From contig CM041778.1 of the NCBI GenBank assembly GCA_023374045.1, positions 100,194,839 through 100,258,838 on the forward strand: a stretch of DNA of 64,000 nt, read 5' to 3'. Each line of letters opens with the position of its first letter. Position 1 is the stretch's first letter. The notes below the pieces were generated by a model. That model saw only the letters and a program-made list of their open reading frames with translations. It searched no databases and was not told the origin of the DNA. Shown piece by piece: positions 1 to 61,020 of the stretch. The stretch comes from Limonium bicolor. Its lineage: Eukaryota; Streptophyta; Magnoliopsida; Caryophyllales; Plumbaginaceae. Position numbers and translations under genes: made by a program.

Positions 1-2052
1 CCAACCAAACTCGTTGGTGTTGTCTGAGGCGCCGAGGGTTTGGCCGTTGCTCTCAATGTAGGTCAGGTAGGACTCGTCTTCAGTGGCCCGACGAAGCCAT
101 GCTGCTCCCCATAACAGTTCATCCTGATCGCAATAAACGATAATAATGAAATTAAACTTTCAGAGGGAACTGTTTTTCAGGGAACTAATAACGACCCTAT
201 TTGGAATAAGTTGTAATCCCAATCTGTTTTTAGTTATTAATATGAAGTTTCAAGTTAGCTCAAAAAAATAACGACCCTATTGAATGTCTTGTGCGATATT
301 GAAATGATAAATAAAGGTATAACTATTTGTTTTAAGAGAACTAACAACATAATTCATGGTGGTGGGGTGGGGGTGATGTTTGTAGTTCTCCATGAGCTCA
401 ATGCACATGCTAGAGCCGATCAAATATATGGTTCGAAAAACTAGATTTGAAAAATATTCATGTAGAATTGGACAAAAAAATAAAATCGAATCAAAAATTG
501 GGATGAAATGACAAAATTTTCGTCGAAAAAAAATCCAATTTAAATTTAGTATATTATTTTTAGAAATATATAATATATTTAATTTAATTTTTATATATTT
601 ATATATCATTTAGAATTTATTAATTATGTAATAATTTATGTTGAATTTTATTATTTATATTTAAAATATTATTATTATTCAAATTTTTGTTAATATTTAA
701 TAAAAAAATTAAATACCGGAAAAGTCAAAAAGAAACTAGGACTAACTAGAAAGATAAAAAAAATCAAATTTAAAACATAATAAAAATACGTGACGCCCCT
801 AAAATTCTTCCAAACCTGCCATAAGCCATTTGATCACATGTGACTCATACACAGCAAAAGAGAGATACTGGACCTGCCTACTTTTAAATTATTGCGCCAA
901 AAAGATGATCGAAAATAGTCTAAAAGTATCTCCAACTGCTTCAACCGCCTCCCTCTATCACTACAGTACTCAACTTCACGGGTGGGTTTCTCGGCAAGAT
1001 ATGTTTTCTTCCGTTCATTCATTTTGATACTCCTTTTTTTCACTTATTAACCCCACCATTTCACTTCTCAATTATTACCCAACCGCTGAATTGCAACAGA
1101 TACCTACTTCCACAATTCCACTACAGCAGTTGCAGAGAACAACAGCCGTGTACTCTGTTTCTATCACCCACAGACTTTATTGAAAAGGAAAAATGAATTC
1201 TGTTACCTACCTGATAGCCATCAAAGTCGCAGTAGAACGGACAGACTCCACCTCTGATATCCTGGTTATCACTGTAAGCACCTCGATAAGTATCCGCATA
1301 CCGGAATGCATTCACGGCGCTTCTCAGCAAGCGTCTCAGCGTACCCAGGGTCAGATAACTTGAAAACCATTGACGTTGCCGCCAATGCTGCTGCAATCTC
1401 ACCCGCTACATCCGATGCCGGGTTTGGAGATTCAACTGCGTAGACTGTCCGTTTTGTGTCCATGTCCTCTGGTCTCTCCCAACAGTTATGATCATCTATT
1501 GGATCCCCAACCTTATCAATTTTCAAACCCAATTTAAAACGTGTATTATGCTCGCTCGCTCCCTCACAAGTTAAATTACTCCAATTGAGCTTAAATTATA
1601 ATAATAACAACCTGGACATATATTCTGTTGGGGAGCAGTGACACAGACTTGAGAAGGTAATCAGCAGCCCATTTGATAGCGATGAGGGAATTCCGTTTCT
1701 CCGATGGTGGCATGAGTTCTCCGAACTCAATTACACTCCAAGCTAGCATTGTGGTGGTAAAGGCCATCGGGAAATTGAATTTCACATTGTCACCAGCGTC
1801 GTAGTACCCGCCAGTTAGTTCGATATTCTCCCGACTGCCGATGACAGGGCCGGAGCCGTCACTGAGTCCGGAATTCGCACGCCACCATATCCGCTGATCC
1901 TGTGGGAGGAATCCTGACCGTTGTCCCTCGAAGAAGAGTATAGATTTGGAGAGGGCGTCGGCGTAGTCGTGGTAGGAGAAGGTTAGGATGGGTAGAATGA
2001 GGGTGATGATGAGTGGGAGAAGTTGAACAGACAGGGAGGAAGAAGGGTTCAT
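1..2052 (-). CDS. GH9 endo-1,4-beta-glucanase (cellulase), 5' part, frameshift in exon 2
   Basis: Hydrolyses internal beta-1,4-glucan bonds in the cell wall. Exon 1 (2052-1612) codes for 147 residues: a hydrophobic signal peptide (about residues 1-26), the GH9 start [18 protein letters not shown], and the catalytic Asp motif GGYYDAGD at 81-88. Exon 2 (1511-1211) starts VGDP and contains [10 protein letters not shown] and, in another frame, [11 protein letters not shown] and [11 protein letters not shown]. Exon 3 (123-1) starts [10 protein letters not shown] and runs off the window. Junctions are CAG|GT, AG|GTTGGG, CAG|GTAGGT and AG|GATGAA, all phase 0. Exon 2 is 301 nt, not a multiple of three: one extra base near 1325-1335 shifts the frame after the DPGYAETL segment. 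This is either an assembly error or a disabling mutation. A secreted form with no N-terminal membrane anchor fits class GH9B. Family is certain; whether the gene works is not. Confidence 0.93.
124..1210 (-). other. Intron 2 of the GH9 gene, AT-rich, no coding signal
   Basis: 1087-bp intron bounded by GT at 1210 and AG at 124. It holds a direct repeat of AATAACGACCCTATT (about 187-201 and 267-281) and a very AT-rich stretch (530-780). No transposon ends were recognised. The small open frames here are chance. Confidence 0.7.
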
Positions 2053-5101: not shown

Positions 5102-6568
5102 TTGTTCAAAGGGAGATGGATTTTGGATTCCGATTCCACGGATCATATTACTGGGAATAGGGATTCGTTTGCAAAATTACATACCTTGCGCGGCGAGAAG
5201 ACTATTGTCTTACCGGATGGAAGTTTTTATGGCGTGCATCTTGTGGGAGATGTGAAAATCGGTGATGAACTCTGGTTGAAGGGGGTGTTATTCGTGCCTG
5301 GGTTCAAGTTTAACCTAATCTTGGTAAAGAGGTTGTCTGAAGATTGTAACCATGCCCTAATTTTTGACGCGGTCGGTTATTTTTTACAGGACCGTTTGAC
5401 AGGGAGGATTAAGCCACTTGGAGAGAGCACCGGTGGGCTTTACGTTTTGGGCTTTACAAACTCATTCTCAAAGCGAGACTTGGGCCACGTCAAGAAACAG
5501 ACATCACAAGAAGGCACGTCAAATGAGCTGGGCTGTGTCGATAGAGGAAATATGGATCAGTTTTGTAATAGTTCTGCAGAAGTAAAGTGTAGCCGGGCTA
5601 CTTTCATTAGCGCCAAGGCTAGAGAGATGCATGTTACTCTTGGACATGTTCCACTTAAAAAACTTGTCACAATGGGATTAATAAAGCATTCTGATTTTCA
5701 TTATGATTATGCTTGCGACGTGTGTTATAAAAGTAGAGCCCAAAGGTTGCCTTTTTCAGATTCATGTGTGAAAACTAAAAGGGCTTTCGAAATGGTTCAC
5801 GTTGATGTGTGGGGTCCCTTTAAAGCTGAGACCTACAATGGCTTCAAATATTTTGTTTGTTTTGTTGATGATTTCACAAGAACTACGTGGGTCCATCTGA
5901 TAAAGCAGAAAGGCGAGGCATGGGAATCAGTTGTCAATTTTCTCAGTTTTATAGAACGACAGTTTGAAACCAAAGTTAAAGTGGTTCGTTCAGACAACGC
6001 CAAAGAACTTGGAAGTTCTAATGAAGGGACAACTTATTTTTCTAAGAGAGGAATAATCCATCAGACTACATGTGCCTACACGCCACAACAAAATGCAGTT
6101 GTTGAAAGAAAACACAGGTATCTTCTTGAAACTGCGCGAGCTCTGTTCTTTCAGTCTAATGTGCCCATAGATTACTGGGGAGAGTGCATATTGCATGCTG
6201 CTTATCTGATTAATAGACTACCTACTAAAGTGCTTGGTGGTATGACTCCGTTTGAAAGTTTGTATGGGCAAAAGGTCGCGTATGATCAAATGAAACTGTT
6301 TGGTTGTTTGTGTTATAAAACAGTCATTAATGGTAGAGGAGGAAAGTTCGGCCCCAGAGGGGAAGCATGTATTTATCTTGGAGAGGATCCAAGAAGAAAA
6401 GGACACAAAGTGTTGAGTATTGGTACTCAGGTTGTGGAAGTTTGCAGAGATATAAAGTTTCATGTTACCATATTTCCATACACAGAAGATATCCAGGATT
6501 ATGGTCTTCGTGATACGGTTGTGCAACATCCTCTACATACGGATATGCAACAAGCTATTTTAAGATGA
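5102..6568 (+). pseudogene. copia protease and integrase part of pol
   Basis: Open for 488 codons and in frame with the upstream zinc knuckle. The protease region reads WILDSDSTDHI: the aspartic-protease D-S/T-G triad is changed to D-S-D, which should inactivate it. Then a GAG pre-integrase segment (MHVTLGHVP...CDVCYKSRAQ) and the integrase core with its acidic triad in HVDVWGP, VRSDNAKE and AVVERKHRYLLE. A frame break near 6562 and a TAA at 6588-6590 separate it from the RT part. Confidence 0.92.
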
Positions 6569-6590
6569 CGTACAGGAACCAAGAGTATAA

Positions 6591-8381
6591 TTGCCTACGG
6601 TTGATGAAGGTGAAACTACCTTGCCACAGATTCTTGTTCGTCGTTCCGGGAGAGAAGGTCACAAACCTAGTTATTTAAATGACTATGTTTGTAATACCGT
6701 TTTCCAAGAAGTCTTGGATGAAAGAGTCTATCGGAACCATGATGTTGCAGGTAACCTCATACAAGGTTGTGCCAGTCTGACGGAGATCAAACCCAACAAT
6801 TGCATGGCTTTGTTTTCTCGTGCTCAGGTTGATTCAGAGTCGGACATAACAGAGCCTAACACTTATAAAGAAGCTGCCCAGCACGTTCACTGGGAAAAGG
6901 CCATGCAGGAAGAATTGGATGCTCTCAAGAGAAATAATACATGGGATGTAGTCACACTACCACGAGGGAAGAAGGTGATCAGTTGCAAATGGGTTTATAA
7001 GGTTAAATTGAAGTCTGATGGATCTCTGGAAAGATACAAGGCCAGGTTGGTGGCAAAGGGGCTCACTCAACGACATGGGCTAGATTAAAATGAAACTTTT
7101 TCACCTGTTGTTAAACTTACCACAATACGAGCTCTCATTGTGGTGGCTTTGAACAGAGGATGGTTTATTAATCAGCTTGATGTTAATAATGCTTTTCTTC
7201 ATGGAGATTTGGATGAAGAGGTTTTTATGAGAATTCCGGATGGCCTTAAGGTTGATGGGAGTAACAAAGCTTGCTTGCTCAAGAAATCTTTGTATGGACT
7301 TAAACAGGCCTCAAGACAATGGTTTTCCAAACTGACAAGTTTTCTGCATACGTTAGATTTTACTCAATCAAAGAACGATTATTCTTTATTCTTCAAAGAT
7401 GTGCAAGGAGGAAGGATGTTCATGGCTGTTTATGTCGATGATATTCTACTCATAGGGCCTAAACAAGAGGAACTTGACAAGATAAAAGCTGCGCTCGATT
7501 TGAATTTCAAAATCAAAGATCTGGGCTCTCTGCACTATTTTTTGGGGATAGAATTCCTTCCAACAAAAGGAGGCTATGTTCTGTCACAGCGAAAATATTG
7601 TATGGATCTCATTGATGAGTTTGGTTGCCAGGATAAGAGAGCTACACAAGGACCCATGGTGATGGGAAAGGCTCTCTTGGTTGATGACGGAGATTTTCTT
7701 CGTGATCCTACTGTTTACAGGAGATTAGTTGGAAGGTTGAACTACTTGTCCAACACGCGACCGGACATCAGTTTCACAGTCCAGACGCTGAGTCAATTCA
7801 TGCAACGGCCAACTACTGTTCACATGGAAGCAGCTATCCATGCACTCTGCTATGTCAAAGGTACCATTAATTATGGAATCGTATTGATTGATGGAGGGTG
7901 TACAATGTTGAACCTCATGGCCTATTGTGATTCAGACTAGGCAGCTTGTCCTAATACCAGGAAGTCAGTTTCTGGATATTACATTTTCTTGGGAAATAGT
8001 CCAATTTCATGGAAAACTAAGAAGCAAGGGTCCATCTCTCTCTCCAGTGCAGAGGCAGAGTATAGGTCTCTCCGTCGTGTCACAGCTGAGTTAGCTTGGT
8101 TAACTCGTGTTCTATCAGAACTTGGTGTCCAGAATATCATCCCCGTACCAGTCAAGTGTGATAATCAGTCCGCGATTCATATTGCTCGGAACCCAGTGTT
8201 TCATGAATGCACCAAGCACATTGAGATAGACTGCCATTTTGTACGTGAGAAGATCCAGCAAGGTCTTGTTGATGTCCTTTACACGCATACTTCGACCCAG
8301 CTCGTTGACATGCTGACAAAAGTTCTTCCAGGCACAAGATACAAAGAACAGCTTCAACGCATGGGAATGAACAGCAAATAA
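6591..8381 (+). pseudogene. copia reverse transcriptase and RNase H part of pol
   Basis: One frame interrupted by TAA at 7086-7088 (where a D-Y-N-E-T-F type motif is expected) and TAG at 7938-7940 (where CDSDWA is expected, so Trp to stop). Copia RT motifs: WEKAMQEELDAL, KARLVAKG, QLDVNNAFLHGDL, LYGLKQASRQW and the catalytic YVDD at about 7432. RNase H motifs: LSSAEAEYRSL, CDNQSAIHIARNPVFHE, and HIEIDCHFVRE. The end at 8381 is just before the polypurine tract. Confidence 0.93.
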
Positions 8382-9732: not shown

Positions 9733-10177
9733 ATAGTATAAATTATTGACATATACCATTCAACAGTATTAGTTAGTCGGTCTGTTTTCCTCCCTAGTGA
9801 GGTTTTCTCCCAAAGGCAATTTTCGTTGCCCAACCCCTCGTCTTCTACACCTGCATGTAAACCCTCAGTATTCCATCACTTCTCTCACTGAGTTGTCAAT
9901 GGCTGCATCTCCTAAATACACGTTTCCCACCTTAATCATCACCAAGTATCTATTACCAACATGCAAAAAATCATTACACCTAGCTCTAGGGGTGCTTGGC
10001 TGTCCAACCTCAAGGTTTACCCCTTACTTAAATCCTGATTTGGTTTCCCGTTGTTTCACACCCCTCCCACTTCTGTTCTTGCTCCACCACTCTTTTCGAC
10101 GGTTCCTCTCCCCGATCTCACGGCTTTTACGTTCTTTCTCAAAGATTTGTGCCACCTTCCCAACTCTCTTCTCTTCA

Positions 10178-11307
10178 ATGGCTGCTGCACCACCACCACC
10201 GCCGGTTGAGGAGTTGGCCACTCACTGTGCCCAGTTGACCCTCACTGCAGCGGAAGAAGCGCCTATCCCAGTTGATGACCTAATCAACGTCCCTGATGAA
10301 ACACTCATGCAATGCTCTTTTCTGGGGAAGTTGATGATGCCCAGGCATGTCGATCTCAAAACCTTGGAGCGGACACTTGCCAAAGCTTGGCGATGTGAGT
10401 ACACGCTACGAGTTCGGCTTTTGGAGGATGGAATTCTCCTGTTCCGCTTGCCCGACGCGGCGTTTGCTGCTTCCATTCTCTCTAGGGGCCCTTGGACTCA
10501 TGATGGTGGCCTCCTTGTTCTCTCGGAGGTTGACCGGTCTGTCGCCCCCAGGAATCATGCTTTTAAGTGGGCTCCCTTCTGGGTGCATGTTCATGCAGTC
10601 CCGTTTCAGTTTATGCACCTTCTGTTTGCTCGGAGACTTGGGAATCAAATTGGAATCTTTATGGAATACGCCGAGTTTGATCGACGTAAGACTGGGTCTT
10701 ACATGCGTATCAAGGTCAAGATGGATGTTACTACCCCGTTGCTCCGTTTCACATCTGTCCTTGCTGATGGCAAAACTTATACTCTCCCGTTAACGTACGA
10801 AAAACTGCCAAATATCTGTTTTTTCTGCGGTGTGTTTACCCATCTCCTCAAAGATTGCCCTTATCGCACGGAGGCAACACAGGCGGAGCTGAATTATGGT
10901 GTTTGGTTAAAGGCAGGTGCCGCTGAAGGGGCTAGACCAACTTTTGAGGTTCGTGGTGAAGCATCAGTCCAGCCTCGTCGTTCAGTGTCGCCACCGGGCC
11001 CTGGAGATTTGCCTTTTGCTGAAGCTGCTGTTACAGAAGAAGGTGGAGCTGAGTTTCATGGAGATGAAGCTGTGCATGTTATGGTGGATATAAATGAGGA
11101 ACCGGTGCTTGAGGAGGGGGAGGTCCCTCAATCTCCCACCATGTCTGATGGCCGTAAGAGGAAAATGATCATGTTCATTGCTCTTCTTCAGATTCGGAGC
11201 TCAGGGAAGTTCATGCTATGGAGGAAGTTAACAAACGCGGGAGGGGCGAGGCTGGTCTGGCTATTTCACAGGCGATGCTGGGGGACACCCAGTGTCGCCC
11301 AGAATAA
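10178..11307 (+). pseudogene. LINE ORF1, nucleic-acid-binding protein (DUF4283, CCHC)
   Basis: ATG at 10178 (MAAAPPPPPVEEL...) is preferred to upstream in-frame ATGs (9797, 9899) because the conserved domain follows it. DUF4283 features: RGPWTHDGGLLVLSEV and FKWAPFWVHVHAVP. Then a CCHC knuckle CFFCGVFTHLLKDC and the usual following YGVWLKA. Acts as an RNA chaperone in the LINE ribonucleoprotein. Near 11165, after DGRKRK, the natural frame is lost by an indel; the open frame then runs to 11395, but the conserved-looking end (HAMEEVNKRGRGEAGL) lies in the next frame and stops at TAA 11305-11307. Confidence 0.88.
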
Positions 11308-14300
11308 TGGCGGTATTGGTGGCGAATTGCAGAGGTCTGGGTGCACCTGCTGCTGTTCGCTGGATCAAGGAGGTGATACACCGACAAGCACCTGATTTTG
11401 TGTTTCTAACCGAGACAAAGTTGTCCACTTTTGAGCTTCGAAGCTTTGCTGCTTCTTTCAGAAACTTTTGTTGGGTGGGTGGGGATAGTGTAGGTAGAAG
11501 CGCTGGTGTTGCGTTTTTTTGGTCTCTCAATCATGTAGTTTCAGTTCTCAGTGTCTCTAGCCGTCATGTTGATGTAGTAATAGGACCTCCGGGGGGAAAT
11601 CAATGGAGGTTTACTGGAATGTATGGATGGTCTGATTGTCGTTTTAAATGGAAAACATGGGACTTAATGCGGTATCTGTCTGTGCAGTGGCACGGCCCAT
11701 GGTTATTAGGTGGTGATTTTAACGAAGTATTATACTCGCATGAGCATCGTGGGAAAGGCACACGTTCAAATGCTAGTATGCTTGCTTTCCGCCATTGTTT
11801 ACTGGATTGTGACCTTCAGGACTTAGGTTACAGAGGCTCCAAATTCACATTTACAAACAAAAGCAGGGATAATCGCCCTTCACACAGCCGTTTAGATCGC
11901 TTCATCTGCAATGATGCCTGGTTGTCTGTTTACCCATTGGCAACAAATTTCCACCTCTCTTGGGGTCATTCCGACCATAAGCCCCTTAAATTAGTTTTAT
12001 CTCCAGCTCGGCCTCATGGCCAACGGCCTTTCCGTTTCGAGAATTGTTGGGCCACAAATCAATCTTGTCAACTCATAGTCCAATCGGTCTGGAATTCACC
12101 AGAATTGGGCTACTGTCAAAAGGTCAAGGAATGTGGACAGAGACTTAGATCCTGGGGTCGGAGACAAATATGGGTGGAGAAACTTTTGCTTAACCAGACT
12201 GAACAGGAAATTGCTAAGGTTGCATCTGCTGGGGTTGGCACTGCAAACATTGCTCGATGGAATGAGCTTAATCATATTCAAGATAATCTTGTTAAAAGAA
12301 GAAATCCGTTTGCAGCAGCGATCTCGGCAACAATGGTTGGCTGCCGGTGACCGAAATTCGCTTTCTTCTTTAGCAGATATAGGATGCGCAATCGACGAAA
12401 TTATATTGCTTCATTGTCCTCTGCTTCGCATCCGCTGCAATCGTCTTGGGCTGGAATTGAGCAGGTTGCTCGACAATATTTTCAAGGCCTGTTTACTTCG
12501 ACTCACCCGCTTCCAGACCCCCATATACAGGCCTGTATATCCAATAGAGTTTCATCAGATCATTTTCAGGCAATGGGTCAGTCTTATACTCGGGATGAAG
12601 TAATCAAGGCCTACAATCAAATGCATCCTGGAAAGGCTCCGGGGCCTGATGGGATTAACGGTACGTTTCTCCGTACTTTCTGGCCTACTATCAGTGAGAC
12701 TTCTTCCATACTTGTCTGAGTTTTCTAAATGCCGGTATTTTGCCTCCAACGCTGAACGACACACATATTATTCTCATTCCTAAGTCTGCAGACGCCATTC
12801 AGATTAGTAACTACAGACCAATCTCCCTGTGCAATACAATTTATCGGGTTATATCAAAAGTGTTGGTTAATCGTATCTCAGATGCTCTCCCTACTGTTGT
12901 CTCTCATAATCAAGCAGCGTTTGTTCACAACAGACTCATATCTGATCAAATCTTGCTGTCCCATGAGATTTTGCATTCTATGCGCAGATCACGGGCTAAA
13001 ACAAAAGGATACTTTGCCTACAAAGTCGATATGTCCAAAGCATTTGATCGTCTGGAATGGTGTTTTATATTGGACGTTTTGACAGCTATGGGATTCCATC
13101 CCAACTGGGTTGCACTTGTTCGCCAGTGCATTACCACAGTCCGTACTTCGATTGTTATCAATGGGCTTCCTGGACAGTTTTTCCAACCACAAAGAGGCTT
13201 GCGCCAAGGGGATCCCCTCTCTCCTATATTATTCATCCTATGTATGGAGGCTTTATCTTCAGCTCTTACTTTTGCCACCGATGTTGGTCTCTATAAGCCT
13301 TATAGCATTCATGGTTTGGCCACCCCAGTTTCTAATCTTTTTTTGCTGATGATATACTCATCTTTGGGGAGGCAACTTCATCCAATGCAGAGGCCTTGGT
13401 TGGGATCTTGGATGATTTCAAAGAAGCGTCGGGCCAATGCATTAATGCCAATAAGTCGGCTGTAATGTTTTCTTTTGGTCTTCATAGGACCTTAAAGGAG
13501 ACCATTACGGCAGCATTATGTGCTCATCAGAAGCAAGATCTCGGCGTCTATCTTGGGTTTCCAAGTACAATCGGAAGAAGTAAGTGTGCTGTTTTTGGTT
13601 ATATCAGGGACAGAGTCGCACAACGAATCCAGAGCTGGTCGCACAAGACTTCACAAGCCGCACGCACTCTGCTGGTACAGTCTGTTCTTCAGGCCATTCC
13701 TTCTTATGTCATGTCCATAATCCAGCTGCCACGTTCTCTCCTGAAGCAGATTCAGACAATGCTTAACCGGTTTTGGTGGGGAGGAACAAAGGATTCTCAC
13801 GTTATTCACTGGACAAAATGGTCTTCTATGTGTAAACATCGTCGTGATGGGGGCTTGGGTTTTCGTGATCTCCGTTGTTTTAATCAAGCTTTATTGGCCA
13901 AGCAATTATGGCGGATCGTGACAGAGCCAGCCACCCTTCTTTCTCAATTTTTCCATGCTAAATACTTGCACACAGCTACTTGGCAAGAAGCTCGGCAGAC
14001 TCTTCCTCAAGTCCTATTTGGAGGGCTCTCCTTGGTGTCCGACATTTATTGCTCTTTGGGGGCAGACGTGCGATTGTCACAGGTACTGATACACGCATAA
14101 CAGACAGATGGCTACAGACGAAAGATGGGGGAAAGCTTTTCCCATGGCGCCTTCCTCCTTTGGTGTTACGGCATGCCTCGGTGGCAACTCTAATCACATC
14201 CAGTGGCCGGTGGAATACGGAATTATTACATCAATGGTGTGATCCAGCGGATATTCCACATGTTTTGGCAACCCCTATTGTTGTGCCCACCCACGTCATT

Positions 14301-15359
14301 GGCCAAGGATTCCTGGTACTGGGGTCTCACAAAATCGAGAGAATACACTGTCTCTTCTGCCTATTATGCCGCTTTGTCCCTAAAGGATGCTAATCTTCCT
14401 TCCGCTTCCTGTCATGGGGCCAAGCACCGGGTCTATCGTGTTCTCTGGGGACTTCAAATTCCTGCACGCATCAAGTTATTTGCATGGAAGTTTATCACGT
14501 CCAAGATTGCATGCAAAACGGTATTAAAGATCGAATACGGCTTGATATTCCCACCACATGCTCCCTGTGCGATTCACATGAAACAATGGTTCATGCGTTT
14601 TATGAATGCCCAGCTGTGCATTCACTCTGGGCTTTGTTTGGTCTTCACTTTCCCCAGCATATTCATGCCGATCATGAGCTTCAAAACTGGCTCTTTCAAT
14701 TTATTTTGGACCATTCCCGATTGGAGGTGACCAAGCTCGTCTGCTTCCTCTGGCAACTCTGGTATGCGCGGTGTCAAGTCGGGCATGGGCAGGTCCGATA
14801 CTTTGAGCATGGCTGGTGTCAGGCGACCAACTTCCTTCATCAAGCTTCGTTGACAGACCATGCCAGTCCTCAAGCGCTTCAGCACCACCGTTTAGAGTAT
14901 CCCTTGTGGCATGAATTTAGTACTGATGCGAGTGTAGATTCACATAACCGAGTGGGTCTCGCCTGGTTGGGCCGCTCTCAATCCAAGCTCATTGTCGCGG
15001 GCAGTTTATGCCTTTCTGGACCTATGAGTGTGGCAGATGCGGAGGCCAGGGCTCTTGAGTCTACGGTGATTGTGGCCATGGATTCTGGGGCAACTACGGT
15101 GCGGTTTTTGTCGGATTCGAAGGGCATCATCCAGTATTTACAAACTGGCAGAACTTCTACGCTCCTACCGTCCACAACAAGTATTTTACATCGCATTATA
15201 GACCGATTAGGCGCCTTTCGTGATGTTTCTTGGTTTCATATTTCTCGAGAGGCAAATTTCTCAGCGCATGTTTTAGCTAACCATGCCCGTCGTACGCAGA
15301 CTTCGGGTTCATGGACTCCGGAAAATATACCGGAGGTTGTACGCTCTCTTCTATCTTAA
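11307..15359 (+). pseudogene. LINE ORF2: endonuclease, reverse transcriptase, RNase H, multiply frameshifted
   Basis: ATG 11307 overlaps the ORF1 stop. APE endonuclease motifs: NCRGLG, FLTETKL, GGDFNEV and HSDHKPL. RT motifs: GKAPGPDGI, SNYRPISLCN, VDMSKAFDRLEW, GLRQGDPLSP. The catalytic FADD box near 13340 is broken by a one-base shortening of a T-run. Downstream: a zf-RVT segment (ARIKLFAWK...CSLCDSHETMVHAFYECP) and an RVT_3-type RNase H with acidic residues in FSTDASVDS, ADAEARALE and FLSDSKGI. Frame breaks fall near 12290, 12360, 12710, 13337, 14010, 14300 and 14525. Confidence 0.92.
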
Positions 15360-20498: not shown

Positions 20499-21240
20499 CA
20501 CTACAAAAAAAGTTACCTATTTAAACGGTATATATTTGATGCTGGAAAGATTTGCGTTGAAATCAAAATGTGCTCTTAACGCTATGAAGCAGTGTTGATA
20601 TTGAAGTGTACAGAATGTTTAATATAAGCCTCGTTTCCACTTATATTTTATAGTGGGCTAATTTTACACTTAGGGGAGTTTCTCTTTACTAAGCCCATTA
20701 CCAAAGTTCGCATGCCGTCTGAAATGAAAAGAAAAGAAAATAAACCCTCGTGACTGCTGCGCGCCCTCCTCCTTCTACCATTCTCCAAACTTCACAGACG
20801 GCTGCTTCCGTCAATTTCACCAAATCTGCAAGTGCATTCACTGTCATTGGTCTGCAAACACATTCACTCCTCTACGCCTACAATAATTTCATCCTATCAG
20901 CATAGATATCAACATAGTGAAGGAACGAGGAACACGAGGAAATTAAACCGGTGAATCTTCAATTCCTCAAATTGATTGTTAGAAGTTTATTCTCGTTTCG
21001 ATTACTCACCCTTCATGTAATTGTTCACTCGATCTGACTAAAATTTTATCAAATCGGACATTATTTGCTTCTTCTCTCTCACTCTCGTTCCCACCCCACC
21101 GAAATTTTGAGCAGCGATTTCCTCTTCTTCTCTTGCTGTGGATTCGAGCCTGGAAGCCACAGTGGTTTGCAATGAGATCGTCATCTTGCAACATATAGTT
21201 TCACGTGAAGCAGATCCGTTGGTGCCTTCAACATTATTCC

Positions 21241-21320
21241 CGATTCTGTGACTATAGGCGGTACCTTTCGAGCCTTCTCAAAAGATACCCTCCGACAACT
21301 CCAGAAACTCGTCAAAGAGG
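21241..21320 (+). other. Possible captured exon, not recognised
   Basis: Reads SVTIGGTFRAFSKDTLRQLQ and KLVKE up to a GT donor (GAG|GTACAG at about 21321). It lies inside the CACTA element, downstream of a 5'UTR-like pyrimidine-rich region (20760-21230). I do not recognise the family; it may be chance. Confidence 0.3.
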
Positions 21321-22629
21321 TACAGTTTAGGGATCTATCAATTTGCATCTATCTTCATTCTCTTCCCTTCAATTTTCATCATTTCTCTGCACCAGCCTTC
21401 ATTGAGTATTGACGAACGGGGAACATACATATCTAAACCTCCTTTTAGCCTCTTCTTAGCAGGATATGCAATTCATACGGAGGTAAGGCCTTGCAGGTTC
21501 TTCTTCGATTTTCCCTTCATATCTTTCGTTCTGAATTTGGTTCTGAATTTGGAATTCAATTCGAGATCTGCCTCATAATTGCTTTGTTCTTCTTTTCAAG
21601 TTGTAACAATCGAAACCAGAGAGGGAAAGTGAAGTGGAGTTTCATTTAGGGTTCAAACCGACATATTGGACACCAGCAGCTTCATAATCTTGCTATAACA
21701 TAAACAGAAACAAAGCCAAAACCGAAATCTATTTTAGGGTTCTTGGAGTGGTGAGTGAATCGGTCCTATATTTGTTTTTATTTTGAAATTAATCTGTGTA
21801 TAATATCTAACCATAATTTCCTTATTTGTTTTATCATCAGCTTCTGTAAAATTGTGAGTACGGTGAGGTAAATCGAAAACTGGACTTAAGATTAGGAGAG
21901 GTTCTGTCTAAGGTTTGTGCTGTTAATGCTAGCTAGTAATGCTAACGGGATGGTAGTTGAGAAATCCTAAAACGGCTCAGTATGTTTTTTTTTGTGTTAA
22001 TGTGTAATTAGTGGATTTTGGAAAATTGTGTCAAGTATATTGGTATCAAACTGGTAGGATTGGACCTAAATTAACGTTTTATTTTCAACACAAGGTTTAT
22101 TCACGTTGATATTTATTTTATGTTTTAACACACCCAGCAAGCGTTGATATTTTAAGCGTTGATTGTAAATAAACCCTCGATTTTAAAACCATGACTACAG
22201 ATTGTTATTAAGCTAAGAATGTGGAAGATCACACACTCTATTTGCTTCTGAATTTTTGTTTTACTGTAGTTTAGTACTCATTTATTACTGAAAGCCATGG
22301 AGAGATTTGAATATGATTTCTGCCTGGAAAAAGGATCCTTATTATCTATGGTTGGTTTGTTTTAATTGTAGGTAACAGCGACACAAAACCCCTTATATAT
22401 ACACCTAGTTTCACTGTGGTACATTTCTTCTCGCGCGGAGTGAATCACCAACAGCTAGCTGTCATTATTTTGAGGTACTTTATATATTTCTGTTGACATT
22501 TATATGTTACGTACGGCTTTGGGGCATTGCCCCACTATTGTTATCACTTGTCAAGTTGTGGGGTTTGCCGTGTGCAATTTATTGAATGCAAATTGTTTCT
22601 TGTTTTGTCTGTTTTTCGACCTCCATCAG

Positions 22630-22730
22630 AGTCGTGTCGGTCCCGTGCAATGGTTGAAGCCTTACACTGATGAAACTCTAGTTGAGCTTGGTCAGCAGGA
22701 GATCAAGAGTTTGTTGGTTGTTCCTGTCAG
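22630..22730 (+). pseudogene. Captured ferrochelatase exon
   Basis: 101-nt exon with acceptor CATCAG| and donor |GTGAGA. It reads [15 protein letters not shown], then [18 protein letters not shown], matching the conserved C-terminal part of plant ferrochelatase, which inserts iron into protoporphyrin IX in plastids. Only this exon was found; the next expected exon (FVSEHIETLEEID-like) is absent. It is a fragment caught by the surrounding CACTA element, not a working gene. The intact splice sites and open frame suggest a recent capture or splicing in a chimeric transcript. Confidence 0.9.
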
Positions 22731-23703
22731 GTGAGACAAAATTTGCTGTTATTGATCTTCTAAGTTGTGTTGCTCTACCATGAATTATGCACATTCTGAT
22801 ATGTTTCTACTAGTATATGGTTTGAACAATTTGATGTACCTTGACCTCATACCTTTAGCATCTTCTTATTTTTCCTGTTTGTTAGACATTAGCGATTATT
22901 GCGTTAATATTTATGCAGCGAAATTGTATGTACATGATTTGACAACAGATTTAGTAATGATGGATTTGGTTAAAAGATCATTTGCTCTCATGGTGAATGA
23001 TACTTGCATTACACACAACTTCTATCAAAGGTAGGATAAAGAGCAGATGCACACACAGCTTGGGGTTCAAATAAATGACCATGGATACTAATATAGTTAG
23101 TGCAGTTCAGTTGAAACATTGCCTTTTGCTTCAAAAATTGTCTCTGATTCTAACTTTTGAATTTGAGAAATAGTAGTAGGCACAGGCAGATGGATTTTCC
23201 GTAGCTACATCCAACGCATACTCACAAAGCTTTCTAGTTTTACATCCAACGCATACTCATAAATTGGCATGAGAAATTCACACTTACCCAATTTCACTTC
23301 AGCTGAAATTAAAAGGAATAGATCCATAAAAAAAAAGCAGCAGGGATGCAAGCTCTGTGCTGGAGAATTATCCTCTGAAAATCAAAGCTATGTGTTTACC
23401 TTAATGACCTGGTTGTTAAGCCTAAAGTTTCTGAATGTCTCCTCATCAGTTACTGCCGGTTAAGGAACATACATAAAAATCTGCAGCGGGTTAATGATTT
23501 CAGTTACTTGCCTATCCTTACTGTTTTCTTGTAGTGTTTGTTTAGTCACATTTAACTCCGATCTAAACAAACTGTACAACAGCAAAAAGATTTAGTGGTT
23601 TTGATATAATTGTTTGTAATGCCAATTTACTCTAGCTACTTCATTTTCATCTGATGAGTGTTTTTCTCTTTCTTATTTCTTTATTGTTATTATCTCACCC
23701 TAG

Positions 23704-24127
23704 CACTATCCAACTCTCAACCGCTCCAGATGTTGCTTGAAGAGCATATGTACAGGTATATATTTAGGAAATCCTTTGTAAACATTCAAGTCATATAGAA
23801 ACAATAATTTCTTCAATATATGTATTAATTTTTTGCTACAGAATGTTTTCTGCAAATAAAGGATCGACATTCAAGCCGACCAGCTCAGTATCCTTTATCA
23901 GTATATGTACATTTAATGATGTAGAACCTCTCGAAGGAACTGTTTGTCTTTTTCTTCATTGTTAAGATTCAGTTACATCTTAACCTTGTTAGATGCCCTT
24001 TCTGCAAAGCTTCTAACTATGCAGTAGAGTATCGAGGTGGAAAATCAAAGGAGGAACAGGGATTGGAGCAGATTGTGATAGTTCAGAACACCGGCTCAAG
24101 GATTTACCTTCAGCAAGGTTCCAAAAG
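23704..24127 (+). pseudogene. Captured exons of a DA2/GW2/SIP5-like RING protein
   Basis: Three exons with correct introns. Exon a 23704-23755 (HYPTLNRSRCCLKSICT), exon b 23842-23887 (ECFLQIKDRHSSRPA), exon c 23993-24127 ([16 protein letters not shown], then [12 protein letters not shown]). Phases join exactly (1 and 2) so the C-x-x-C pairs of the RING-like domain fall in register, as in plant SIP5/DA2-type proteins (C..C, ICTECF, CPFCK). After EQI the frame departs from the family ([18 protein letters not shown]) up to a GT at 24128. The start and the first cysteines are missing, so it is a fragment. Confidence 0.85.
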
Positions 24128-24832
24128 GTACATTTTATGGGAGTTATAATGGGAATAACTTCGCCGCATACATGTTCGATGTGGAGTTCGCTATCCCATG
24201 ATCTCTTTGAGTTTAGTCTCTTAGCTTTCTCTTTGAGTTTAATATGTCATTATGATACATATAAGTCTGTCATTCTGCTGCTGATCCAGTGCTGTTTTTA
24301 AGTGGTTTTGCTGCTGTTTTAGTGGTGAACCAATTGCTATTTTTAATCTCTGTCATTATGATACATATCTTGCTGATCCATTGTTGTAAACGGTTTTGCT
24401 GCTGCTAGTTTACTATACTTTTTCTACTGATTGCGTAGGGAGGAGGGCACACCGCACTGGAGTACAAACGAGGGAGCTTAGGCCATGATTAGTTGTTGGT
24501 GTTCGAGATGAAGACTTAACTAATAAATGTCACCCATTTTCCGGTCTTTTTTTTTTGTGAAAATTGTATATTTTTTCGACGCAAATATTGCGTCGTATAT
24601 CGATAATATCATTTGAGTGGAAAATGTCATTTACGACGTAAATTTCTGTTAGTTTAATATTCTTTTCGACGCAATTTTTTGTAGAAATTCTTAATTATTT
24701 GCGTTGACAATATTTTTTCAACGGTGTCAAACTCGACACTTTGATGTTGTGTTGATTCCTAATTTTTGACACAAATGTGTCGAAAATTGAGAATTTCTTG
24801 TGTTGAAACACATACATAATTTTGTAGTGTAA

Positions 24833-25574
24833 GACTAATCTCGGTGTGAGAGAAGAACTTCCTCAAGAGACAATATTGGAAGGAGAGTAAAGCACCACTG
24901 AAAGGAAAACTGCATTGTTGAATTGAATGGATGAAGAGAAAACGTAAATATGTCGAGAAAAAGAGGAAGGAGCTCGATAGAAGGAAGGAGAGGACGAAGG
25001 GGAGGAAAGATCTAGAGCAAAGAATTGAAAGCATGCAAAATCGATAAGGATTAACGATCAAAAGAAACTAATGATTTCATTCCCGCGGCTATAGAGGATT
25101 AGGAAAGGAAGAGACGCGGCCGCTACTGAGGAGATATCTTTGTATTAGGATCCACTAATCACTGCTACAACTTCCAAAACATCACATTTTAGAGAGGAAA
25201 CGCGAGAACACACGGTTTGACGAGGACGGAGACAAAGGGCATGAGAAAGCTGGGCAAGGCTCCCGCTTAAAGAAGTGCTATGTAAAATTGGAAAACATTT
25301 AAGAAACAACAAAAGATCTAGAATATCTTATACCGCGCGTAAACAGGAGAGTAATAATTATATTGACTATACATATACTCTTAACACCATATGTAAAATA
25401 AGGCCCAGAAGCGACAGGTGTCTCTCCTATCTATAGTTCTACACTATATCTAACATTTAATATTAGGAAATGGACATCATCATTTATTTATCTAGTATAC
25501 ATGTGTATAAATCTATAAGAAGCCACCCGACCCCTTGTGCGTATCAAGTGCGCGTGAAAATTTCATGCTATTAA
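24833..25574. other. Probable 5' part of the antisense LINE relic, then intergenic DNA
   Basis: 24833-25060 read on the minus strand is pyrimidine-rich with a short open frame (MIVNPYRFCMLSILCS...), like a LINE 5' leader; it joins 20498 once the CACTA element is removed. 25080-25574 shows no gene. Confidence 0.45.
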
Positions 25575-26155
25575 TTAGTTGGGGATTTGCTTGTAACGAG
25601 GCCTGGAAAATGAAGGCGTCGGATCATATCTTCCATAATCATTGGTATTCATCCTCAGCAACCTCTCGTGGATTGCTCTCTGGGATTGATCAGTCTCCAG
25701 TGATACTTCGTCCTGGAACTGGTTCACCTTGATCAATTCATAAAGTAAAGTGGTGATTATCAAATGGGAGAAGAAAGTCAAGTGAAGAGTTTTTTGGTCA
25801 TGAAAACTGTAGTATCAGAGTCTGAAGCATGAAACTGTACGCAAAAGATGACGATGACAACAGTTAGTTAACAGAGAGCCCTCACATGACTAGTCCCAGC
25901 GCTATGATCTTCATCTTCGTTTAAAGTCCATGCTGCCTCAAAGCTAGCCTGTCTACCTGCACAAAACCGACCAAACATAGACGAGATATAAAGTGATCGA
26001 TGTCAGTTATGTCTTTATAATTCAATCGAACCTCTTTTCTCCCTTCTTCTGACAGAGAGCTTTGAAATAAAGTATATACCTGCAAGTGCAGCTGAGATCA
26101 TGACAAGGAGAATAAGGATGAGGTACTCTATCTTCATAGTCACATGATTGCCCAT
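25575..26155 (-). CDS. CIF-like (Casparian strip integrity factor family) peptide precursor
   Basis: Three exons: 26155-26080, 25956-25886, 25727-25575. Introns are GT-AG (CAG|GTATAT...GTGCAG|, CAT|GTGAGG...ATCAAG|) and phases fit (1, then 0), giving a 99-residue precursor. Residues 1-25 are a signal peptide (MKIEYLILILLVMISAALA from the second Met, 26137, an alternative start). A variable acidic middle follows. The last 21 residues, DYGRYDPTPSF then SRPRYKQIPN, end exactly at the stop. This matches CIF1/CIF2 peptides: 21 residues, N-terminal Asp-Tyr (the Tyr is sulfated by TPST), a Pro-rich centre, and a basic-x-IPN end (known form ...PPFKLIPN). CIFs bind the GSO1/SGN3 and GSO2 receptor kinases and control apoplastic barriers. 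PPF to PRY and L to Q are divergent. No other family fits as well. Confidence 0.82.
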
Positions 26156-26226: not shown

Positions 26227-26233
26227 ATATATA
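26227..26233 (-). promoter_or_regulatory. Probable TATA box of the CIF-like gene
   Basis: CTATATATCC on the minus strand, about 72 bp upstream of the ATG at 26155, a normal distance for a plant gene with a short leader. Confidence 0.5.
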
Positions 26234-28567: not shown

Positions 28568-29744
28568 GGCGGAAACAATTCTAGGACGTCAAACGCCGCA
28601 AATTCCTCTTCATCTTCTCACGCTGTATTTCCCTAGTCGGTTCTTATAGCAACTAGAAATCTTATTAAGTTGACTCAAAACAACTTCAGCCTTTGGGAAA
28701 CAATCACAGTCTCATTCCTACGAGGTAATTATTTGTTCAAATTCCTTGATGGCACTCACCTTTTTCCTGAACCAAGATCAACTTCTAATGTTAGTGATTC
28801 ATATGTCCCTCATTGAACAACTTATAGTCACTGTTATGGGTTGTAAAACCTTGAGGCAGTTATGGGAGCTTTTACACAAAATATACACAGCACAATCAGC
28901 TGCACAGCTTGGTCATTACCATCTCCAGCTAGCGGGAATTACAAAAAGGAAGGATGAGTCTATATCATATTATTATAATAGAGCAAGAGGCCTTGTTCAT
29001 TCACTTGCTGGAGTTGGGCATGTGGTTTCAGACGGAGAATTTCAGACCTAGTTGCTAAGAGGCTTACCAACAGAATTTAACCCTATAGCTATAATAATCC
29101 TTTCATCCCATGATCAGCTGGCCCCCTTTGAGGCGCTAACTCATCTACTGCAATTTGAAGTCACCATTAACCAACAAGCACAACAACTTATTAGCATTGT
29201 TAATGTAAATGCTGCAACCATAGCAAACATTACCATTACTGGGAATAACCAACAAGCACAACAACTTATTAGCATTGTTAATGTAAATGCTGCAACCATA
29301 GCTAACGTTACCACTGCTGGGAATAAAAGAGGAACATTTAATAATAAAAGAATCAGAGGTAACTTTCACGGAAGAAACAACAGAGGAAGGGGAAGATTCA
29401 CCAATTATGGAAGAAACTCTAATGGTGGTTATGTCACTTTTTTCTCTAGTCAACCAGACACAAGAGTTTGGTGTCAAATCTGCTCTAAAAGAAGACATGA
29501 GGCTAAGGATTGTTTTCACAAATTCCATCACGATTACCTATCTTCTCCTCCCTCTTCATTTACAGTAAACAACACCACATATAACTCTCTCTATGGTAAT
29601 GCTGATTGGCTTCCAGATATTGCAGCTTCGCACCATTTTATTGGTGACTTTGCCCGTACAAGTGCAGATAATATTACCTTAGGTAACGGATCAGCCATGT
29701 TCTATCTCCCACCAAGGAACCGGTGCTCTCACTATTCACAATAG
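28568..29744 (+). pseudogene. copia gag relic with in-frame duplication
   Basis: Gag starts near MAETILGRQ (28568) and is broken by stops at about 28647 and 29049. Recognisable parts: LRQLWELLHKIYTAQSAAQ, ISYYYNRARGLVHSLAGVG, a knuckle CQICSKRRHEAKDC and a damaged protease start WLPDIAASHHF. A 78-bp (26-codon) in-frame tandem duplication spans 29171-29326 (NQQAQQLISIVNVNAATIAN twice). Confidence 0.85.
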
Positions 29745-29949
29745 AAACTTTAAGCAGTGGCATATATCTATCACAGTTCCTATTTTAATAAGTATTTACT
29801 TTCGGTGAATCGTTTATGCAAGGATAAAAATGTCTATTTTGAGTTTCTCCTTGAGTGCTTTATTTTAAAGGACCACAAAACTCAGCAGGTGCTTCTCCAA
29901 GGCCAGCTAGACATCACATTTACCTTTTCCCTACAACTTTAATCATGTT

Positions 29950-32605
29950 TTGCCACCTCAATATCACCTCAACAACCTAAGTGTCAAGGCTTCTCCGACA
30001 ATCTGGCATTGGCGCTTAGGCCATCATTCAAGTTCTACTACTATTTTGACTATGAACAAGTTTAATCTCCATGTAAATAAAGCTACACCCAGTTTTTCTC
30101 TACTTCTTGTCTTGGAAAACACATCCTCTACCACATGTTACTTCTTCTAGCAAATCTAAAGCTCCGTTTAAATTACTTTTTATGGATAAATATAAAGTAT
30201 CTTTCTTCAGCTGATGGTTACAGAAAAATTTTCTCCTCATTGTTGATACTTTTCAAAATACATGTGGCTTCTTGTTGCTTTGAAATCAGACATTAAATAG
30301 GTTTTGCATACTGTTTCACAATCTGGTTAGGAACTTCTTTATTACCTTCATCATATCTGTCCAAATAGATGGAGGGGGAGAATTTAAGGATCTTTCTGTT
30401 TTCTTTGGAAATGAAGGTATCAATCACATGTCTCACCCCAAAACAATACCGCTAAAAGCAAAAATATATTTGTTGTGTATAAGGGAATTACACTCATGGC
30501 TCAAGCCTCATTTCCTCTATAGTTTTGGTCCTATGCTTTCCGCACAACGGTTTATCTTATGAATCGTACTCCCACACCAATGTTACACCACAACTCTCCT
30601 TTTTGGATGTTGTTCAAAGCTACTTCCAACTATTCTTTTTAGAAGGTTTATGGATGTGCATGTTACCCAAACCTTAGGCCTTATAACATGTACAAGTTTT
30701 CTTTTCGAATCATCCAATCTTATTTCTTCTTCCTCACCGCATGCCACTCCTAACCCTAACCTCTCCAAAAACTCCTCAAACAAAATCCAGCCACTAACAT
30801 TGCTCTTATCTCCCTCCATCATCCTCTGCCATCATGTCCACACATACTGAATCCTCTCCCACACTAGTCTCTCCACCTATGAACAATCACCTCATGCTAA
30901 CCCGAGCTAAAACCAATACTTCCCGTCCTCATATTGGAACTGATGGAACCATACCCTACACTCTCCATCATAGTGTCATCTATAATATTCTAGAAAATCC
31001 AACTCTTAAGCAAGTCATACAACATCAAGAGTGGATCTTAGCTATGGACAATGAACTAAAAGCTCTTAATCAAACCCAAACACGGACCTTGGTTCTCTTC
31101 CATCCTACAATGCATGTACTTGGTGTCAAATGGTTTTTTTTTTTTGCACAAACAGGGACACAAATGACTCTACTTTCAAGAGAAAGGCATAGTTAGTAGA
31201 ACGGGGTTCCAATCAAACTCATGGTTTTGAGTATACCAAACACTTTCAATCTAGTAGTAAAGCAATCAACCATCATACTTGTTTTATCCCTTGCAGTCTC
31301 TCACAAATGGCCTATTCAACAACTTGATGTCCAAAATGATTTCTTGCACGGTGACCTACATGCGATTGTTTATACTCACCAACCTACTAGGTTTTCTAAT
31401 CCCAAATTTCCCAATCATGTTTGTTTGTTAAAATGATCTCTATATGGCCTCAAGCAATCTCCTTGTGCCTAGTATGCCAAACTAAGTCGGTTTAGGGTTC
31501 TCTATCTCTCAATCAAAGACCTCTCAATTTACTTTTACCCAAGGGAAGGTCATTGTTTATCTTTTGGTGTACGTTGATGATATCATCCTAACTGGCTTTA
31601 CTTCTCGTATGTTACAACAATATATCAAAACTTTTGCAGCCAACTTTCCCATTACTGACCTTATAACTCTTAAACACTTTCTTAGAGTTTCTGCAAATCG
31701 CACCAACTTTTTCCTACTTTTAGCTCAAACACAATACATCACATACTTGCTCTCTCGAGTGAACATGCATAATTTGAAAGTTGGTGCTACACCTATGTCC
31801 TCTACAATTTGTCTAGTGTCTAGATACCACTGATTCCGCAGTTTTCAAAGATCAAACATTATACATAAGCATGGTGGGAAGCTTTCAACATTTGTCATTT
31901 ACACGGCCAGGTCTATCTTTTGCAGTAAATAAAGTAAGTTAGTACACGCACTCACCGAAAGACGTCCACTGGCATGTCGTGAAGAGAATCCTTTGTTATT
32001 TGAACAACATGTGACACCTTGGACTCTTCTTTGCAACTACTTCTCTCCAGGCCAACTTGCAGTGATTACTGATGTGGATTGGGCCAGATCTGTTGTAGAT
32101 CGACGGTCCACCCAGTAGCGGACCCAGAACTTTTGTTTAGGGGGATAAAAAAAATATTTTGACACCATTGTTCTTTAATACATTATGTTATTTTATATTT
32201 GTCAAAAATTTATAAGAGCATTTTACAAATTTCCAAAAGTTTCGGGGGGGCCGGTGCCCCCCCCCCCAAAACCCCCCTTGCGTCCGCCACTAGGTCCACC
32301 GATGGTTATCTTGTGTTTCTTGGACCACATCTCATCTTCTGGAGCTCTTGCAAGTAATCCACCTTCTCCTAGTCAACAACAGAAGCTAAATACAAAGCTC
32401 TGGCGATGGGAACTACAAAAATTATTTGGATTCAACAGGTTCTCTTTGAATTGGGTCTACATCTTTGCAACCCTTCGCTTGTCTACTGTGACAACCTGGG
32501 CATAACCTTCTTGGTCGTAAATCCAGTTCTTCATAGTCGGGTTAAACATGTTTCCCTCGACTATCACTTTATTCGCGAAAGAGTAAAACAAATAGTTCTT
32601 TGAGG
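29950..32605 (+). pseudogene. copia integrase/RT/RNase H relic
   Basis: Scattered pol motifs: pre-integrase HWRLGHHSS (~30007), RT QQLDVQNDFLHGDLH (~31318) and YVDDIIL (~31572), RNase H-like CDNLGITFLVVNPVLHSRVKHV (~32488; shown in two parts: CDNLGITFLV, VNPVLHSRVKHV). Frames change often and much of the integrase is missing. The RNase H region is interrupted by a MITE. Confidence 0.85.
32113..32292. mobile_element. 180-bp hAT MITE inside the old copia element
   Basis: Ends CAGTAGCGGACCC and, reversed, TAGTGGCGGACGC. Perfect 8-bp duplication GGTCCACC (32105-32112, 32293-32300). Contains runs of seven G and nine or more C, unusual homopolymers. Confidence 0.9.
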
Positions 32606-35640: not shown

Positions 35641-35712
35641 ATCAGAGTGGCGTAGCGGAAGCGTGGTGGGCCCATAACCCACAGGTCGCAGGATCGAAAC
35701 CTGGCTCTTATA
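35641..35712 (+). tRNA. tRNA-iMet (CAT), imperfect copy
   Basis: Matches plant initiator tRNA-Met: ATCAGAGTGGCG start, anticodon stem GTGGG/CCCAC with loop CCCATAA (anticodon CAT), T-loop ATCGAAA. Two mismatches stand out: C3 opposite T in the acceptor stem (CTCTTAT instead of CTCTGAT) and G opposite G at the outer pair of the T-stem (GCAGG/CCTGG). A T7 run at about 35732-35738 could terminate Pol III. It is either a weak gene or a pseudogene. Confidence 0.8.
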
Positions 35713-37067: not shown

Positions 37068-37154
37068 CCGACCTTAGCTCAGTTGGTAGAGCGGAGGACT
37101 GTAGTTGTGTAACAGATAATCCTTAGGTCGCTGGTTCGAATCCGGCAGGTCGGA
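37068..37154 (+). tRNA. tRNA-Tyr (GTA) with intron
   Basis: Perfect acceptor stem CCGACCT/AGGTCGG plus discriminator A, D-arm TAGCTCAGTTGGTAGAGC, anticodon GTA, T-arm CTGGTTCGAATCCGG. A short intron of about 13 nt (TTGTGTAACAGAT region) follows the base after the anticodon, as in all plant nuclear tRNA-Tyr genes. A CAA motif lies just upstream. Looks functional. Confidence 0.95.
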
Positions 37155-55655: not shown

Positions 55656-57040
55656 TGATAAGTGCGAAATATATCTATTTTCAAGGCTATATTTTATGTT
55701 ATATTTCCAATGAATTATGACATATTTCACACTTATCATATATTTTTCCTTATATTTATGTTTAGATTTGAGCTGATGGATTTTATGTGTCAATTGCAGG
55801 AATTATATATATATATATATATATATAATATTATATATATATATATATATCACGAAACATCACGCTGATTTAATGATTATAATAATCATTTACTAATCAT
55901 CATCACACTCACGGCAACATTTATTAACGGACGAGATGAATATCAACAATGTTTTTATAATTTTTTCTTTTATCACTTATCATGATGACTTCATCAGCCT
56001 TTATACACATGACTACCGTATCAATTTGGTTGTTCATATAAAGAGAGAAGCGAGGGTTTTCGAGAGGGGAATTCACGCTCTGTACACCGCGCCTCCACAG
56101 AGGCTTATGCCTCCAGCCTCCATCTCCACTCTTCCACATCCACACAAGTCCATCATTGTTAGCACTTCACACTTTTAACAGAGGATTAATGCAGAGACAT
56201 GTGACGACAGAAAGCGGAGTGAGGATCTTCTTAATAGAGTTTCTTCTTCCCTTTTTATCTAATTTGTCAATGTGTTATTCCTTTGTTGTTTTTGTTACTT
56301 TTATAGTCATGTTAGCGTAGTTAGTTTAGCTCCCCGGATTGGGGTAGCAAACTGGATCTTTATATTTATTTTGTAATCTCTTTACTATTTATTAATGCAG
56401 TAGTTTAATTCCTGTTCTTCATGTGCTTTAATTCTCTAGCTAATTATTAAAGCAATCCTTGTAGTTTTCTAATCAAAATGCGGCGCTGAGATTAGTTAAT
56501 AAGACATAGGAAGTTAAACCGGATTAACGACTAGAAGCATGGTTTGCCTATAGGTTAATCTGTCTCCAATAGGAATTGTTAATAATGCGATTGGTTAGAA
56601 TTGACTTGGGCATGGTTTGCGGCTTGTTATTTCTACCAGTTAGGATTCGTTGTACAAGGACCGGTCAACGGGTTAATTAAGATTCCTGAGTTTATTGCAG
56701 AATTAGGGAAGAGTTTATTAATAATTGGAAAGTGAAGGTTTGCAGAACAATCCGGGGTGCTTCTTTAGATTCAATACTTATTTCTTTATTTAGTTTATTT
56801 TTATCTTTTTACTGTTTCATTATTTTATGTTAGTTTGTTTAGTCATTCTTTTTATTAAATTAAGTAAAACCTGAAAAAGTGATGTTTCCTGTTTTCTTAG
56901 TTTAGTTTCTCAGTTAGTAAATAAATTGTCAATTAATTGAACGAGGTCCCTGAGATCGACAACCCCCACTCAATTCACTATTCCGCAAAACGATAGGTAC
57001 ACTGCCTAAGTAGAAGTATAGTAAACATATTTCTGCTACA
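55656..57040 (+). repeat. 5' LTR of the non-autonomous gypsy-type element
   Basis: 1385 bp. TATAAAG near 56037 is a plausible promoter. The TA run at 55805-55850 is longer than in the 3' LTR. Confidence 0.94.
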
Positions 57041-59667: not shown

Positions 59668-61020
59668 TGATAAGTGCGAAATATATCTATTTTCAAGACT
59701 ATATTTTATGTTATATTTCCAATGAATTATGACATATTTCACACTTATCATATATTTTTCCTTATATTTATGTTTAGACTTGAGCTGATGGATTTTATGT
59801 GTCAATTGCAGGAATTATATATATATATATAATCACGAAACATCACGCTGATTTAATGATTATAATAATCATTTACTAATCATCATCACACTCACGGCAA
59901 CATTTATTAACGGACGAGATGAATATCAACAATGTTTTTATAATTTTTTCTTTTATCACTTATCATGATGACTTCATCAGCCTTTATACACATGACTACC
60001 GTATCAATTTGGTTGTTCATATAAAGAGAGAAGCGAGGGTTTTCGAGAGGGGAATTCACGCTCTGTACACCGCGCCTCCACAGAGGCTTATGCCTCCAGC
60101 CTCCATCTCCACTCTTCCACATCCACACAAGTCCATCATTGTTAGCACTTCACACTTTTAACAGAGGATTAATGCAGAGACATGTGACGACAGAAAGCGG
60201 AGTGAGGATCTTCTTAATAGAGTTTATTCTTCTTTTTATCTAATTTGTCAATGTGTTATTCCTTTGTTGTTTTTGTTACTTTTATAGTCATGTTAGCGTA
60301 GTTAGTTTAGCTCCCCGGATTGGGGTAGCAAACTGGATCTTTATATTTTTTTGTAATCTCTTTACTATTTATTAATGCAGTAGTTTAATTCCTGTTCTTC
60401 ATGTGCTTTAATTCTCTAGCTAATTATTAAAGCAATCCTTGTAGTTTTCTAATCAAAATGCGGCGCTGAGATTAGTTAATAAGACATAGGAAGTTAAACC
60501 GGATTAACGACTAGAAGCATGGTTTGCCTATAGGTTAATCTGTCTCCAATAGGAATTGTTAATAATGCGATTGGTTAGAATTGACTTGGGCATGGTTTGC
60601 GGCTTGTTATTTCTACCAGTTAGGATTCGTTGTACAAGGACCGGTCAACGGGTTAATTAAGATTCCTGAGTTTATTGCAGAATTAGGGAAGAGTTTATTA
60701 ATAATTGGAAAGTGAAGGTTTGCAGAACAATCCGGGGTGCTTCTTTAGATTCAATACTTATTTCTTTATTTAGTTTATTTTTATCTTTTTACTGTTTCAT
60801 TATTTTATGTTAGTTTGTTTAGTCATTCTTTTTATTAAATTAAGTAAAACCTGAAAAAGTGACGTTTCCTGTTTTCTTAGTTTAGTTTCTCAGTTAGTAA
60901 ATAAATTGTCAATTAATTGAACGAGGTCCCTGAGATCGACAACCCCCACTCAATTCACTATTCCGCAAAACGATAGGTACACTACCTAGGTAGAAGTATA
61001 GTAAACATATTTCTGCTACA
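59668..61020 (+). repeat. 3' LTR of the non-autonomous gypsy-type element
   Basis: 1353 bp, nearly identical to the 5' LTR and followed by the GCAAG duplication. Confidence 0.94.

Follow-up and report, generated by a model that had tools for sequence, protein, structure and literature searches.

A probable additional CIF1/CIF2-class peptide-hormone gene with a PRYKQ tail in a 64-kb plant DNA window

Three short open stretches lie close together on the minus strand of the window, by which we mean the whole 64-kb stretch of DNA that was analysed. Do they form a gene for a peptide hormone of the Casparian strip integrity factor (CIF) family, whose members help to close off the inner barrier of the root, and what does its tail, PRYKQ in place of the common PPFKL, say about its class? 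Joined as exons (26155-26080, 25956-25886 and 25727-25575), they encode a precursor of 99 residues that ends in DYGRYDPTPSFSRPRYKQIPN followed directly by the stop codon. The introns of 123 and 158 nt are both of the GT-AG type, and start, stop and frame are all intact. The initial annotation had proposed this model of three exons (76, 71 and 153 nt) with canonical splice sites and 99 residues, and it stood when the frame was checked. The features of the locus are as follows.

26080 to 26155, minus strand: exon 1, 76 nt, with the start codon and the predicted signal peptide (from the reading frame and a hydropathy peak at residues 12-22).
25957 to 26079, minus strand: intron 1, 123 nt, GT-AG, which interrupts the codon for Gly in the A-G-R motif after the signal peptide.
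25886 to 25956, minus strand: exon 2, 71 nt, part of the proregion (from the gene model).
25728 to 25885, minus strand: intron 2, 158 nt, GT-AG, with alternative in-frame 3' ends 9 or 15 nt further on.
25575 to 25727, minus strand: exon 3, 153 nt including the stop codon, with the acidic proregion, IHERLLRMNTN and the 21-residue hormone (from the gene model and the relatives).
25578 to 25640, minus strand: predicted mature peptide DYGRYDPTPSFSRPRYKQIPN (matrix score 76.5; match to CIF2 with E=0.011).
26227 to 26233, minus strand: TATA-like site (TATATAT at 26233), some 70 bp ahead of the start codon; weak, by consensus only.
25483 to 25488, minus strand: AATAAA polyadenylation-like signal, about 90 bp past the stop codon; weak, by consensus only.

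The TATA-like site and the AATAAA are compatible with a transcription unit without proving one, and the former is no proof of a promoter. The order of parts that had been described for the precursor, namely a signal peptide-like start, an acidic spacer and a C-terminal 21-mer running from DYG to IPN and the stop codon, was found again, with the hydrophobic core of the signal peptide reaching a hydropathy maximum of 3.25 at residues 12-22. Exon 1 also holds a second in-frame ATG at 26137.

Regarding the second junction, which had been placed at 25886/25727, it is GT-AG and in frame. Nevertheless, exon 3 could start in frame from 25727 (after AAG), from 25718 (CAG) or from 25712 (CAG before GAC), and a fourth in-frame AG of intron 2 would set its start at 25694. 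Therefore, 25727 is one acceptor among several. The first three give precursors of 99, 96 or 94 residues respectively, with the same hormone in each.

The intron positions can be compared indirectly with an alignment of 30 of the 192 relatives described below, chosen for pairs of isoforms or of close species. These pairs differ at two places. The first is just before the Gly-Arg that follows the signal peptide (P0031/P0036, P0030/P0032, P0009/P0172 and P0148/P0177), and intron 1 coincides with it in the protein alignment. The second is the spacer before HERLL (P0031/P0037, P0122/P0130, P0125/P0138, P0168/P0170, P0159/P0178 and the grass pair P0096/P0099). Intron 2 falls within this spacer; its columns are those of the Digitaria pair and lie about 7 columns ahead of the others, in a part where the alignment is loose.

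Other features were found elsewhere in the window. On the plus strand, 5102-7940 holds pieces of a copia-type retrotransposon pol (integrase core, SH3-like and RVT_2 domains), 9797-15359 holds LINE-type pieces in several frames (DUF4283, zinc knuckle, endonuclease/exonuclease/phosphatase, RVT_1 and RVT_3), and 28674-31833 holds more copia-type pieces (gag at 28674, RVT_2 at 31486); these lie at least 2.5 kb upstream of the CIF gene. Direct repeats form four pairs (164, 300, 121 and 300 nt), 99-100% identical and spaced by about 3.98-4.01 kb, at 55656-56665 and 59668-60645, and they look like a young element's pair of long terminal repeats. An ORF at 1591-2052 (minus strand) carries the N-terminal portion of a domain of glycosyl hydrolase family 9 (E 9.9e-40). 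Past the CIF gene on its 3' side, a short ferrochelatase piece is found at 22474-22731 (plus strand; profile positions 230-264, E 1.9e-9). Nearby, the open stretches 21209-21409 and 23925-24146 look by eye like exons of other plant proteins, and Pfam gave no match above the cut-off there. ARAGORN placed two tRNA genes on the plus strand, one with a CAT anticodon (35641-35712) and a longer one without a clear anticodon, perhaps intron-containing (37068-37154).

The peptide was scored on a matrix made from AtCIF1, AtCIF2, GmXAP3 and SlCIF1, with the peptide of the window left out. In all six frames of the 64-kb window the 21-mer scored 76.5 and the second-best place 21.5, so that the matrix finds one copy. 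The best score in 300 simulated 64-kb windows (first-order Markov) was 39.5, with a mean of 23.9 and an SD of 3.8, and a Gumbel fit to these windows places 76.5 at about 8e-9. An earlier set of 150 simulated windows had one outlier, which scored 46.5, or 50.5 when the stop column was counted, and is also far under 76.5. Since the score lies so far above the simulated maximum of 39.5, chance is excluded for the peptide.

The peptide also leads to the family directly. The solved Arabidopsis CIF2 peptide (6s6q_C) aligns with the 21-mer without gaps along all 21 positions (E=0.011; profile E=0.0067). A first profile search of the protein collection gave 110 plant CIF-like proteins out of 112 candidates, and a second gave 310 proteins with E<=1 out of 496 candidates, of which 120 were listed. 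The union of the 110 with the 120 listed of the 310 forms our set of 192 relatives; it was collected using words taken from peptides of the CIF1/2 type and is not a random sample. Those listed with an organism name are flowering plants. Of the 192, 191 have an ungapped 21-mer, and P0082, which has none, was excluded from the counts. The CIF2 match and these relatives uphold the assignment to the CIF family made in the initial annotation. Furthermore, that annotation had named beforehand the conservation of the C-terminal 21 residues in related species as one of the points on which it could fail, and these residues are conserved in other plants. Its remark that gene finders often miss such genes fared less well, as 35 of the 110 proteins of the first search are already named Casparian strip integrity factor.

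The likeness is not restricted to a few residues of the hormone. Among 51 distinct 21-mers eight positions never vary (D1, Y2, P7, P9, P14, K17, I19 and P20), and the window peptide keeps all of them. The 21-mer stands at the extreme C-terminus of the window precursor, as it does in 105 of the 109 relatives of the first search with an ungapped 21-mer, and the precursor itself is of the short secreted type of the CIF1/CIF2 class (99 aa with a hydrophobic N-terminal core). Beyond the hormone, the alignment of 30 of the 192 relatives extends to the signal peptide, the A-G-R junction and HERLLRxNT before Asp-Tyr; this last motif, found in many eudicot CIF1/CIF2 members, appears in the window as IHERLLRMNTN. 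The best full-length match among those listed was P0111 from Striga, with 47% identity over 93% of the precursor. In pairwise scores against the listed relatives, P0020 from Acacia came first, and the Caryophyllales quinoa, Saponaria and Gypsophila were near the top, at most a hint at the placement of the source plant. The exact 21-mer of the window was found in none of the 192.

The precursor alone gave no match in the protein collection. We do not read this as absence, because relatives found later share words with the precursor (P0013, P0106 and P0110 have at least 5 five-residue words in common with it) and fit in length. Pfam gave two weak matches on the precursor, both under the cut-off.

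From these sequence comparisons, the gene is probably a plant peptide-hormone gene of the CIF1/CIF2 class, and we put the probability of this reading at roughly 0.88. The gene model is open, the peptide is conserved and the gene belongs to the CIF family, of which it would be an ordinary additional member.

The tail at positions 14-18 is where the window peptide looks least typical. It reads PRYKQ instead of PPFKL, which the initial annotation took to be usually invariant. PPFKL is actually the commonest form among the listed relatives (144/191), but the remaining 47 do without it, so PPFKL is not defining for the CIF1/CIF2 class. PRFKL is found in 24 of the 191, including 14 of the 18 named grass rows. 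The rarer tails are PPYKL (5), PPFKQ, PRFKP, PHFKD and PRHKL (3 each), PPSKL (2) and PRYKL, PPSKI, PYFKP and PRSKL (1 each), PRYKL being the tail of P0023. The PHFKD tail marks a second type of peptide, with MDDYG before the hormone, in P0086, P0089 and P0161; P0161 is from Eleusine, the sole named grass of this type, and it forms a starred pair with P0086 in the tree.

Taken one at a time, Arg15 occurs in 32, Tyr16 in 6 and Gln18 in 3 of the 191 listed relatives, and the full PRYKQ combination in none of them. Each change of the tail thus has a precedent in other plants. The earlier suggestion that the unusual tail probably alters the affinity or specificity for the receptor is therefore unsupported, although the affinity may still differ; Arabidopsis CIF3 and CIF4 diverge much further (table in PMC11534595). 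A more specific version, in which PRYKQ is matched to an altered GSO-type receptor of the lineage and the pair is no longer freely interchangeable with the PPFKL form, strikes us as quite improbable.

The best of the competing explanations is that this is a dying or silent CIF copy, whose frame is still open while its tail has drifted off the receptor-binding consensus. In a tree of the window and 53 hand-picked relatives of the 192, the window has an end branch of 0.92 against a median of 0.29 and belongs to no starred fork. Moreover, a tail combination seen in none of the 191 listed relatives and a window full of transposon pieces would suit such a copy. Against it, however, stand the intact start, stop and frame, both GT-AG introns and all eight never-varying positions, with a precedent for every altered residue, and we regard this explanation as unlikely.

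Less probable still is a CIF-family peptide with another job, in the embryo cuticle or the pollen wall, like TWS1 or CIF3/CIF4. The same receptors do serve these roles in the CIF family, according to PMC11534595. However, AtCIF3 has only 9 of 21 residues in common with the window peptide, versus 15 of 21 for both SlCIF1 and GmXAP3, and roots were the one tissue of those tested in which the SlCIF1 gene was expressed (PMC9028419). Finally, that open stretches were merely joined by eye and there is no gene, an idea to which the short exons and the blank search with the precursor alone might lend themselves, has a negligible probability given a score of 76.5 where 300 simulated windows reached at most 39.5, relatives found by two profile searches and a likeness that extends upstream of the hormone.

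If the gene is of the CIF1/CIF2 class, as we prefer, its expression, splicing, processing, modification, receptor and function may be taken from the CIF family. The pathway, with secretion, sulfation, GSO1/SGN3 and lignification, is described in PMC10827307 and also in PMC11534595. By analogy, the precursor would enter the secretory pathway through its predicted signal peptide, TPST would sulfate the Tyr of the Asp-Tyr motif, prolines of the peptide would be hydroxylated, and proteolysis ahead of Asp79 would free the C-terminal 21-mer. The peptide would be produced in the root stele and diffuse outward. Where gaps in the Casparian strip let it through, it would bind the receptor kinase GSO1/SGN3 with a SERK co-receptor, and this binding would cause lignification of the gap until the barrier has been sealed.

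The evidence gives no sign of a new mechanism, and what is added is one clear CIF1/2-class gene. Nevertheless, PRYKQ is a natural variant of the tail that could help to map the residues tolerated by the receptor, and PPFKL turns out not to be invariant, PRFKL being the form in the grass rows counted above.

Among the known systems, the closest are two peptides identified by mass spectrometry. Tomato SlCIF1, DYGRYDPTPALSKPPFKLIPN, was found in xylem exudate (PMC9028419), and soybean GmXAP3, DYGRYDPSPSLSKPPFKLIPN, in xylem sap, where Tyr2 was sulfated and prolines were hydroxylated in some of its forms (PMC9369194). Of the 15 residues that each shares with the window peptide, SlCIF1 has the first nine the same and GmXAP3 eight of these nine. 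Both also have the C-terminal position, Asp-Tyr and the IPN end in common with it, whereas they carry Leu11, Lys13 and PPFKL where the window has Phe11, Arg13 and PRYKQ.

Arabidopsis CIF1 and CIF2 share 11 of 21 residues without gaps and have the same precursor layout. Their positions 4-6 are NNS or HSS versus RYD in the window, and their tail is again PPFKL. The grass CIFs (e.g. P0093-P0102) match the window peptide at up to 17 of 21 positions and share its R15; unlike it, they mostly have Phe16 and Leu18, and the main grass proregion is without IHERLLR. In rice, where the CIF pathway is present, dissociation constants of 1600 nM for OsCIF1 and 439 nM for OsCIF2 are given in a commentary (PMC10827307). 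P0023 shares PRYK. As for Arabidopsis CIF3, CIF4 and TWS1, the table of PMC11534595 counts them in the family in spite of larger departures in the tail. They start with Asp-Tyr like the window peptide, and CIF3 also has the PTP motif in common with it, while they end in a C-terminal His with another type of tail, unlike PxFKx, and the window peptide in RPRYKQIPN, with the IPN end. A C-terminal His alone is not decisive for that type, because it is also present in two proteins of the CIF1/2 class, P0103 and P0105.
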